A DNA stretch of 64,000 nt from Diaphorobacter sp. HDW4A (GTDB lineage Bacteria; Pseudomonadota; Gammaproteobacteria; Burkholderiales; Burkholderiaceae_C), in NCBI RefSeq assembly GCF_011305995.1, contig NZ_CP049910.1, positions 1,240,001 through 1,304,000 on the forward strand, written 5' to 3'. Under the pieces are notes generated by a model that saw only the letters and a program-made list of their open reading frames with translations, was not told the origin of the DNA and did no database searches. Every line of letters begins with the position of its first letter. Position 1 is the stretch's first letter. The position numbers and the translations under genes are program-made. Shown piece after piece: positions 33,980 to 46,639 of the stretch.

Positions 33980-34568
33980 CACCAACCGCTCACCCCGTTC
34001 AGACAATCGCCTGCCTGAATTGCTGGATGCCGCCGCACGCGCCTTTGGAAGTCGCGGCTACGCGGCGACCTCCATGCGGGAGATCGCGCTGGAGACCAAC
34101 ATGCTTCCGGGCTCGCTGTACTACCACTTCCCGTCGAAAGAGGCGCTGCTCGTCGCTGTGTACAGCGAGGGCGTGAAAGAGCTGGAAATCGCGACGGCGG
34201 CGGCCATTGCGAAGGAGCGCGATCCCTGGGACCGGCTCGAGGCGCTGTGCCGTGCGCACCTGGAGACAGTGCTCAGCGACAGCAACTACGCCAACGTCCT
34301 GATCCGCGTGCTGCCCGATGACATCCCCGAGGCAGCCGAGCGGTTGCGCGAGGTGCGCGAGGCCTACGAAAAAACTTTTCGCGATGCGGTCGAGGAATTG
34401 CCGCTCGTGCCACGCGCCGACCGCCGCGCGTTGCGACTGATGTTGATTGGTGCCCTCAACTGGACGGCGCTGTGGTTCAACCCCCAGGGACGCGATTCCC
34501 CACGCGCACTGGCAAGGAAATTTGTGGGGCTGATCAAGGAGACACAAGATGGCAGTTCGTCCGCCTAG
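33963..34568 (+). CDS. TetR-family transcriptional regulator
   Basis: This 201-residue repressor has an N-terminal helix-turn-helix (LLDAAARAFGSRGYAATSM, then GSLYYHFPSKEALLVAV), the standard TetR signature. The C-terminal domain resembles fatty-acid-responsive members, which bind acyl-CoA, and that would suit the acyl-CoA genes that follow. It overlaps the mutase small subunit by 20 bases, so it is the first gene of that operon. Confidence 0.93.
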   Translation: MNTKRTTNRSPRSDNRLPELLDAAARAFGSRGYAATSMREIALETNMLPGSLYYHFPSKEALLVAVYSEGVKELEIATAAAIAKERDPWDRLEALCRAHLETVLSDSNYANVLIRVLPDDIPEAAERLREVREAYEKTFRDAVEELPLVPRADRRALRLMLIGALNWTALWFNPQGRDSPRALARKFVGLIKETQDGSSSA

Positions 34569-34971
34569 GGTGATTGTCACGAAGATTGGATTTGACGGGC
34601 ATGACCGAGGTAGCCGCGTCATTTCCGCCACCCTTCGCGACGCAGGCATGGAAGTGATCTATACACCACCGTGGCAGGAAATTGCAACGGTCGTCAAGCT
34701 GGCCACCGAAGAGGACGCCGACGTGATCGGCATCTCGTCCCTCGCGACCGATCACCTGATTGTTCCGCAGCTTATGACAGCGTTGAAGAACGCGGGTCTG
34801 TCGGATGTGCAGGTCATTGTCGGCGGCATCGTGCCGGCCAAGGATGAAGCCAAGTTGCTGGAGGCGGGCGTGGCGCGCGTTTTCCATCCGGGGGCAGCGC
34901 TCGACGATGTCGTCACTGACGTCATCGCACTGACCGCCAAGCGTCGTCAATTGCAGGGAGAATCGGCATGA
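34549..34971 (+). CDS. B12-binding small subunit of an acyl-CoA mutase
   Basis: This 140-residue Rossmann-like cobalamin domain has the base-off/His-on motif FDGHDRG (Asp-x-His-x-x-Gly), a later SSLATDH and the GG of VIVGGIVPAKD. It is a stand-alone version of the C-terminal domain of methylmalonyl-CoA mutase, as in isobutyryl-CoA and 2-hydroxyisobutyryl-CoA mutases, whose two subunits are split. It overlaps both neighbours, which supports tight co-expression with the catalytic subunit. Confidence 0.92.
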   Translation: MAVRPPRVIVTKIGFDGHDRGSRVISATLRDAGMEVIYTPPWQEIATVVKLATEEDADVIGISSLATDHLIVPQLMTALKNAGLSDVQVIVGGIVPAKDEAKLLEAGVARVFHPGAALDDVVTDVIALTAKRRQLQGESA

Positions 34972-45338: not shown

Positions 45339-45370
45339 GCGGTTTGCCCCTGCCTGCGTTACTTCACCGG

Positions 45371-46639
45371 ATGGCTTTCACCATGACTTCTTCTCGCGAA
45401 TTTTTCGATGCGCTGGAAACGCGCAGCGCCGACCAGCGAATGGCGGAGCAACTCGCTGCGCTGCGCTCGGTTTTGACGGCGGCGCAGGCGGCCGCTCCTG
45501 CGCTGGCGGATGTGTTGAAGGACGTTGACCCATCGCAGCTGCGCGATGTCGACGCGCTCTCGAGCATTCCCATCACGCGCAAGTCCGAGCTGTTTGCGAG
45601 GCAGCGTGCGGGTCTGCGGCGCGAACCGTTCGGGGGGTATTCCACGCTCTGCAAAGGCCCTGGAATGCCGCGCCTGTTTGCCTCCCCAGGCCCGATCTAC
45701 GAGCCGCAGGGCGTGCGACCGGACTATTGGCGCATGGGCCGTGCGTTGCATGCCGCGCGCTTTCGTGCCGATGATCTGGTGCACAACGCCTTCAGCTACC
45801 ACATGACGCCTGGCGCGTTCATGTTCGAAGCGGGCGCGCATGCGCTTGGATGCACCGTGTTCCCCGCCGGTGTCGGGCAGACGGAGCAGCAGATCGCAGC
45901 CATGCAGGAGCTGAGGCCCGATGCCTATTGCGGAACGCCGAGCTTTTTGCGCATCCTGCTCGAGAAGAGCCGTGCGCAAGGGCTTGAGCTGCCCGGGCTG
46001 CGTGTCGCCTCCGTGAGCGGGGAGGCCTGTCCGGCCAGTCAAGTCGAGTGGCTCAGGAACCATGGGGTGGATGCATTCCAGACTTATGCCACGGCTGACC
46101 TCGGCCTGATTGCTTATGAAACCGTGGCGCGCGAAGGCTTTGTGCTCGACGAGCAGGTCATCGTCCAGATCGTGCAGCCCGGTACGTCCCACGTGGTTGC
46201 GGACGGCGAAGTCGGAGAGGTCGTCGTGACCGTGCTGAACCCGGACTATCCACTTATCCGCTTCTCGACCGGCGATCTCTCCGCCATGCTGCCCGGTGAC
46301 TGCCCCACCGGTAGAACCGCTCCACGCCTCGAAGGCTGGCTCGGCCGGGCGGATCAGTCCGCCAAAGTGCGCGGTATGTTTGTGCACCCGACGCACATTG
46401 ACCAGATCGCCCAGCGCGTGCCTCAAGTGCAGAGGTGTCGTTTGGTCATCAGCCATTCCGATGCTGGCGACCACGTAGCCCTGCAGGTGGAGTCGCTGGA
46501 GCAAGGGGCGGCATTTGTGCTGCTCATCACGACCGTGTTCAGAGACATCACCCGACTGCGTGCCGAGGTACAACTGGTTCCTTCGGGCAGCCTTCTCTTG
46601 GACGGCCGGAAGGTGGTGGACGAGCGGACTTTCTCGTAG
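45371..46639 (+). CDS. PaaK-like (phenylacetate-CoA ligase family) protein with an atypical P-loop
   Basis: The protein has about 422 residues from the ATG at 45371; the ATG at 45383 and the TTG at 45335 are other possible starts. The overall plan follows PaaK: DVDALSSIPITRKSELF, NAFSYHMTPGAFMFEAGAHALG, VFPAGVGQTEQQI, SGEACPAS, FQTYATADLG and FSTGDLSAML. The nucleotide-binding loop that reads SSGTTGKP in PaaK is here RLFASPGPIYEPQG. So either a divergent loop still binds ATP or the protein has another role. It closes the TetR-mutase-ligase-Liv operon. Confidence 0.8.
   Translation: MAFTMTSSREFFDALETRSADQRMAEQLAALRSVLTAAQAAAPALADVLKDVDPSQLRDVDALSSIPITRKSELFARQRAGLRREPFGGYSTLCKGPGMPRLFASPGPIYEPQGVRPDYWRMGRALHAARFRADDLVHNAFSYHMTPGAFMFEAGAHALGCTVFPAGVGQTEQQIAAMQELRPDAYCGTPSFLRILLEKSRAQGLELPGLRVASVSGEACPASQVEWLRNHGVDAFQTYATADLGLIAYETVAREGFVLDEQVIVQIVQPGTSHVVADGEVGEVVVTVLNPDYPLIRFSTGDLSAMLPGDCPTGRTAPRLEGWLGRADQSAKVRGMFVHPTHIDQIAQRVPQVQRCRLVISHSDAGDHVALQVESLEQGAAFVLLITTVFRDITRLRAEVQLVPSGSLLLDGRKVVDERTFS

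Follow-up and report, generated by a model that had tools for sequence, protein, structure and literature searches.

A predicted operon of Diaphorobacter sp. HDW4A that would import pivalate or a similar acid, activate it with CoA and rearrange it with a B12 mutase

A gene set on the plus strand of a 64,000-nucleotide stretch of Diaphorobacter sp. HDW4A (here called the window; C1:1240001-1304000 of the 6.76-Mb genome) runs from a TetR-family regulator through a PaaK-like ligase at positions 33963-46639 and encodes a two-subunit B12-dependent acyl-coenzyme A (acyl-CoA) mutase. Judged by its sequence, this mutase is a member of the pivalyl-CoA mutase family, a known enzyme family, and represents no new reaction type. 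The operon as a whole probably takes up pivalate, which an earlier note on this DNA had already listed among its candidate substrates, or a similar quaternary-carbon acid, activates it, and rearranges it to a 3-methylacyl-CoA. Quaternary carbons block beta-oxidation, and the sources of pivalate are prodrugs and industry. What becomes of pivalate is easier to explain once it is known which bacteria hold the skeleton-rearranging route, and with which transporter and ligase; the cluster offers a gene set of this kind, ready at hand, from environmental bacteria.

The family assignment begins with plasmid pXAUT01 of Xanthobacter autotrophicus Py2, on which Xaut_5043 is 66% identical to the window mutase over 541 residues. 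In the plasmid search, from which 60 of 426 records were listed, six records are at least 60% identical, and identities then drop from 61% to about 41% among those best 60. The order on pXAUT01 is Xaut_5045 (TetR), 5044 (B12-binding subunit), 5043 (mutase), 5042 (MeaB-type ATPase), 5041 (PaaD-type thioesterase), 5040 (PaaK-like), 5039 (ligase), and 5038-5034 (Liv-type genes), and all 12 proteins match window counterparts at 35-69% identity. In the window, as in pivalyl-CoA mutase, the large and small subunits are separate adjacent genes and the small one binds B12. Both subunits are orthologous to Xaut_5043 and Xaut_5044, with 66% and 69% identity and a single clade of 87 family rows. A protein search with Xaut_5043 found that the UniRef name of the identical entry begins "Pivalyl-CoA"; among the matches listed, four entries 96-100% identical to it, three from Xanthobacter and one from a Pseudomonadota metagenome-assembled genome, bear the NCBI name "pivalyl-CoA mutase large subunit". 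Kitanishi, Cracan and Banerjee reportedly purified native pivalyl-CoA mutase from strain Py2 (JBC 2015), and the defining feature of the enzyme is said to be interconversion of pivalyl-CoA and isovaleryl-CoA without isobutyryl-CoA mutase activity.

Five active-site positions of the window mutase, L87, Q194, N204, Q241 and H242, are the same in 81 of 81 rows (the window and 80 further loci), and Xaut_5043 agrees at all five. We take them to correspond to Y89, Q197, R207, Y243 and H244 of methylmalonyl-CoA mutase (MCM), in MCM numbering. Where the family has L/N/Q, Y/R/Y is seen in MCM rows and F/Q/Y in the IcmF-like rows L014 and L015. The loop at 112-124, which is not known as a defining feature, reads SLIPCNSVFRGYD in the window and SLLPCCSGFRGID in Xaut_5043, and the two are not identical. 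Of 87 rows, 84 have Asn117 and three have Cys117, which makes Xaut_5043 the odd one at this position; L114 occurs in 14 rows, G119 in 11 and I123 in eight. The mismatch leaves exact specificity uncertain, while membership by orthology stands. The earlier note had held that the mutase residues fit no specificity it could recall and that the pathway might be undescribed. Neither idea is supported by the comparison with a 66%-identical relative that bears the pivalyl-CoA name, has the same five residues, and sits among the same neighbours, and a new specificity class was dropped on the same grounds. That note had itself named a close match to a characterised mutase, with identical key residues and the same neighbours, as what would count against novelty; the residues and neighbours have now been found, and the word "characterised" applies if the enzyme reportedly purified from Py2 is, as presumed, this relative.

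The genes are as follows.

33963..34568, plus strand: TetR-family regulator (PF00440/PF17932; 49% to Xaut_5045)
34549..34971, plus strand: B12-binding small subunit of the mutase (PF02310, TIGR00640; 69% to Xaut_5044), with a DGHDRG motif and an upstream Lys read from the sequence
34968..36650, plus strand: mutase large subunit, pivalyl-CoA-mutase type (PF01642; 66% to Xaut_5043)
36655..37842, plus strand: MeaB GTPase chaperone with a fused hotdog thioesterase domain of PaaI type (above cut-off: TIGR00750, TIGR00369; below it: TIGR02286, a PaaI model)
37852..38196, plus strand: conserved 114-residue orphan, five-helix model
38222..40183, plus strand: FadD11-like acyl-CoA ligase (PF00501; 54% to Xaut_5039; the top NCBIfam model is FadD11, with a score below cut-off)
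40180..40977, plus strand: LivG-type ABC ATPase (64% to Xaut_5038)
40996..41925, plus strand: LivH-type permease (UrtB/LivH models below cut-off; 63% to Xaut_5037)
41998..43074, plus strand: LivM-type permease (53% to Xaut_5036)
43143..44468, plus strand: LivK-type substrate-binding protein (PF13458; 50% to Xaut_5035)
44535..45338, plus strand: LivF-type ABC ATPase (ATG start chosen; 68% to Xaut_5034)
45383..46639, plus strand: PaaK-like AMP-forming ligase (PF00501, TIGR02155 below cut-off; 45% to Xaut_5040), with SPGP in place of the usual SGTTG, as in Xaut_5040
32516..33688, minus strand: Liv-type binding protein (PF13458), divergent from the TetR gene

Open reading frames (ORFs) and Pfam and NCBIfam domains bear out every gene of the earlier note, on the plus strand and in the order it gave. 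Its range, 34549..46639, holds for the genes but begins too late, since the TetR gene falls almost entirely before it. The "many" overlaps of 4-20 bases come down to three firm ones, of 20 bases (TetR/B12 subunit), 4 bases (B12 subunit/mutase) and 4 bases (ligase/LivG), the rest being gaps: 4 bases for mutase/MeaB, 9 for MeaB/orphan, 18 for LivG/LivH, 72 for LivH/LivM, 68 for LivM/LivK and, with preferred starts (ligase GTG 38222, LivF ATG 44535, PaaK-like ATG 45383), 25 for orphan/ligase, 66 for LivK/LivF and 44 for LivF/PaaK-like. GTG 38222 yields the 1962 nucleotides of the annotated gene in Diaphorobacter HDW4B. A 4-base LivF/PaaK-like overlap arises only if the latter begins at TTG 45335. 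The minus-strand binding protein may or may not be part of the transport system.

A route can be proposed from these genes. The LivGHMKF transporter would import the acid, and the FadD11-like ligase, possibly with the PaaK-like protein, would form its CoA ester. The mutase, whose activity is predicted from its family, would then shift CO-SCoA from the quaternary carbon onto a methyl carbon (a 1,2-shift), converting a 2,2-dimethylacyl-CoA to a 3-methylacyl-CoA. MeaB would load and repair the B12 cofactor, the thioesterase joined to it probably frees CoA by hydrolysis of stalled esters, and the TetR protein presumably senses the acid or its CoA ester. Isovaleryl-CoA, as product, could enter the leucine route through isovaleryl-CoA dehydrogenase (IVD), methylcrotonyl-CoA carboxylase (MCC), hydratase, and HMG-CoA lyase.

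Candidate genes for such a continuation lie behind related mutases on two plasmids, one from Sulfitobacter sp. BSw21498 and one from Pseudosulfitobacter pseudonitzschiae. Both have mutase, MeaB, thioesterase, and a second TetR gene on one strand, which continues directly with genes of carboxyltransferase, hydratase, biotin carboxylase, and acyl-CoA dehydrogenase type. When the carboxylase-cluster proteins were scored against solved structures, the carboxyltransferase gave 589 bits to Pseudomonas MCC beta, 428 to geranyl-CoA carboxylase, and at most 261 to most propionyl-CoA carboxylases; the best match of the biotin carboxylase is MCC alpha, by a narrow lead (519 bits, next 510). These MCC-like genes fit an isovaleryl-CoA product, because a mutase making isovaleryl-CoA would need them. 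A geranyl-CoA (citronellol) route on plasmids of this type was set aside, since the carboxyltransferase is nearer to MCC.

The genome of strain HDW4A likely contains the entire set for this route (IVD, MCC alpha and beta, hydratase, and HMG-CoA lyase), as judged from sequence matches. A clear IVD is encoded at C1:6019062 (572 bits; next non-IVD 296); a second candidate in this genome was not IVD-like. An MCC-type carboxyltransferase at C1:6044635 scores 870.5 bits with MCC beta and 506 with geranyl-CoA carboxylase, and near it are a biotin carboxylase and a hydratase, by similarity, and an HMG-CoA-lyase-like gene, by motif. Elsewhere in the genome, a second carboxylase cluster (L112 6461-11522; C1 about 957460-962521) holds carboxyltransferase, acyl-CoA dehydrogenase, and biotin carboxylase genes; it adjoins a protein that we take to be AtuA-like and possibly serves acyclic terpene use.

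How widely the grouping is kept was judged from a scan of species genomes, which found 218 pattern stretches, 207 of them encoding a relative of some kind. The 80 loci that matched best (mutases at least 64% identical) were scored with the window proteins anywhere in the fetched stretch. Raw counts over all 80, which include loci cut by contig ends, are followed in parentheses by those for the 57 loci that have 8 kb or more of downstream sequence: TetR 66 (48), B12 subunit 76 (54), MeaB 69 (49), thioesterase fused to MeaB 37 (30) or separate 10 (8), orphan 19 (17), ligase 22 (20), at least three Liv genes 18 (18), and PaaK-like 12 (11). Some of the Liv and ligase hits counted here belong to another kind of Liv/ligase set, which is placed differently (e.g. 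L059, L032). The gene grouping is more than chance, and its fixed core consists of TetR, both mutase subunits, and MeaB. Co-conservation of these genes, whose absence the earlier note had named as refuting its idea, is real yet far from universal; the note's picture of a single operon that handles uptake, activation with CoA, and rearrangement by a B12 enzyme is a well-supported inference, with the ligase in 22 and Liv genes in 18 of the 80 loci.

Among named relatives of the mutase in the scan, that of Diaphorobacter caeni comes closest (98%). Members of the family are uncommon: among 369 genomes sampled class-wide, a full-length match of at least 64% was found in four (that of HDW4A included), and one partial match reached 67%. 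A tree of 90 rows, built by a quick method with three outgroup rows (two MCM and one second mutase), places the 87 family rows in one clade with SH-aLRT support of 100; the window mutase and Xaut_5043 both fall inside, the latter nested beside Bradyrhizobium and Sphingobium sequences. So small an outgroup makes the test a modest one; the identity gap among plasmids agrees with it. Liv-bearing loci lie on several separate branches, including records labelled gammaproteobacteria, alphaproteobacteria, and Nocardioides. L019, L024 and L033, whose bins carry the labels Desulfovibrionaceae, Propionibacterium and Desulfobulbaceae, group with Comamonadaceae/Burkholderiales sequences, and those bins may therefore hold foreign contigs.

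The MeaB-thioesterase fusion and the orphan may bear on how B12 mutases stay working. In fused rows of the alignment, the MeaB part stops where the C-terminal arm lies in seven free MeaB rows, and a PaaI-type hotdog domain with an HGG...D motif follows. Hotdog domains also dimerise, and the fused thioesterase may for this reason replace the MeaB arm. The orphan has no Pfam or NCBIfam match at E <= 0.001. Its alignment has 18 members with 17 invariant positions, and its AlphaFold model has five helices (pLDDT 86.6, pTM 0.75), for which a fold search in PDB gave no match at E <= 0.001 (best E 0.39). Across 60 genomes, that of HDW4A included, the mutase was found in seven (E <= 1e-140) and the orphan in six (E <= 0.001), all six among the seven; the seventh, G413, has no orphan match. 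The orphan directly follows the mutase gene in G414, and in G005 it lies one gene beyond the MeaB of a second mutase cluster. Within the 369-genome sample it was found only in HDW4A itself and as one marginal match (E 5.5e-4), and G106, G112 and G380 have the mutase with no orphan match. The orphan is therefore not needed for the mutase family, as these three genomes and G413 demonstrate.

Several observations weigh against pivalate as substrate and isovaleryl-CoA as product. NCBI names the same Xaut_5043 entry methylmalonyl-CoA mutase, large subunit; relatives nearer to the window mutase carry generic names; and the assayed Py2 enzyme is presumed to be Xaut_5043/5044, one of two candidate assignments of its locus tags. 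From window to Xaut_5043, the loop differs at I114/L, N117/C, V119/G and Y123/I. On the two plasmids, whose near-identical mutases make them one evolutionary case, chains named AccD1, propionyl-CoA carboxylase beta, and carboxyl transferase score above MCC with the carboxyltransferase (612, 597 and 596 bits), no named methylglutaconyl-CoA hydratase fits the hydratase, and the acyl-CoA dehydrogenase is not closest to IVD. Among loci L016-L095, such a carboxylase was found in the fetched stretch of L078 only, and it is more distant. The top chain for the HDW4A carboxyltransferase itself is a propionyl-CoA carboxylase beta, at 871 bits versus 870.5 for MCC.

The loop differences also feed a reading, which we think unlikely, in which the mutase, a member of the pivalyl-CoA mutase clade all the same, naturally acts on a larger acid, alicyclic or with a quaternary carbon, such as a 1-methylcyclohexanecarboxylate or a terpenoid fragment, and pivalate is just one possible substrate. 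Near the L030 mutase, and telling against pivalate, are BadI (just above the curated cut-off), a BadH-like protein (below cut-off), and a second Liv/ligase set. BadI and BadH are cyclohexanecarboxylate genes, and these neighbours therefore hint at alicyclic acids there; relatives such as L090 share gene clusters with the L030 neighbourhood, and a carboxylase cluster lies near the mutase in L078. The 80 loci also span varied bacteria by record title, and pivalate is rare in nature. Set against this, the five checked key positions are those of Xaut_5043, the BadHI neighbourhood turned up in a single closely related group, and the HDW4A genome has likely genes of the entire C5 leucine route. A broader and doubtful suggestion draws on the fact that the loop of the Xanthobacter enzyme occurs in only three of 87 rows: most of the family might serve not pivalate as such but natural quaternary-carbon acids, 2,2-dialkyl and alicyclic, which it would open to beta-oxidation. 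The Burkholderiales version would then add two parts for control, namely a thioesterase that stands where MeaB has its C-terminal arm and removes wrong CoA esters during cofactor loading, and a mutase-bound helical orphan.

That the cluster serves another known class, with 2-hydroxyisobutyrate, isobutyrate or methylmalonate as substrate, is very improbable. The best solved-structure match of the mutase is indeed the 2-hydroxyisobutyryl-CoA mutase 4r3u (358 bits), followed by methylmalonyl-CoA mutase (341), but the specificity positions differ from 2-hydroxyisobutyryl-CoA mutase, MCM, and IcmF-like rows, identity to MCM rows is 35-38%, and the drop in plasmid identities sets the family apart. 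Isobutyryl-CoA mutase presumably has Phe and Gln where the window has L and N. Least probable of all is an operon that runs in reverse, from isovaleryl-CoA to tert-butyl (pivaloyl) starter units. PMC9974510 describes interconversion of pivalyl-CoA and isovaleryl-CoA by IcmF, so the reaction can go both ways; a full Liv-type transporter, two ligases, and the carboxylase genes downstream on two plasmids argue for catabolism. For an indoleacetate/phenylsuccinyl-type mutase (IaaGH), considered because of the PaaK-like gene, a single literature search gave nothing, and the idea was set aside, not refuted, no IaaG sequence having been compared.

Further observations concern other B12 mutase clusters. 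A second split B12 mutase cluster (L097 5318-10191, at C1 about 1932317-1937190 of the HDW4A genome; L100 27910-32783) is composed of genes for an enoyl-CoA hydratase, the large and then the B12 subunit of a mutase, a CaiB-type CoA transferase, and a MeaB-like protein; an IclR regulator gene and genes of transporters lie close to it (L097 labels assigned by reading). Its mutase keeps the MCM-like Tyr and Arg, with Ala at the Tyr243 position. In Diaphorobacter HDW4B, the second cluster lies close behind the first operon. On a plasmid of Sphingobium sp. YC-XJ3 (L101 9744-26959), a set of ligase, thiolase, TetR, B12 subunit, mutase, and MeaB genes is tandem-duplicated; a copy of IS6100 separates the two sets, and the second contains an IS1380-like element. 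In the window itself, 48227-62503 is an ORF of 4758 residues whose translation has many similar repeats and resembles a giant adhesin.

Of known systems, the Xaut_5045-5034 cluster is most like the operon proposed here to use pivalate or a similar acid: subunits are split and 66% and 69% identical, the five active-site residues are the same, and TetR, MeaB, thioesterase, PaaK-like, ligase, and five Liv genes are neighbours in both. It differs in that MeaB (Xaut_5042) and thioesterase (Xaut_5041) are separate there and fused in the window, the PaaK-like gene precedes the ligase there and is last in the window, the 114-residue orphan is present in the window only, and the loop differs at four residues. 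HcmAB of Aquincola tertiaricarbonis (4r3u) is likewise a two-subunit B12 acyl-CoA mutase, presumably also clustered with a ligase and MeaB. It has I, Q and D117 where the window has L87, N204 and I114; its active-site Ile and Asp, which we take to be I90 and D117, thus have no equivalent in the window. Methylmalonyl-CoA mutase shares the PF01642 family and has Tyr and Arg at the two positions, Tyr89 and Arg207, that we take to bind the free carboxylate; the window protein has L87 and N204 there, and Q241 where MCM has Tyr. IcmF, with its own MeaB-like domain, is reported to interconvert pivalyl-CoA and isovaleryl-CoA (PMC10481361 and PMC9974510); unlike the window mutase, it is a single fused chain with F/Q at key positions, and its best matching stretches cover only about residues 224-547.

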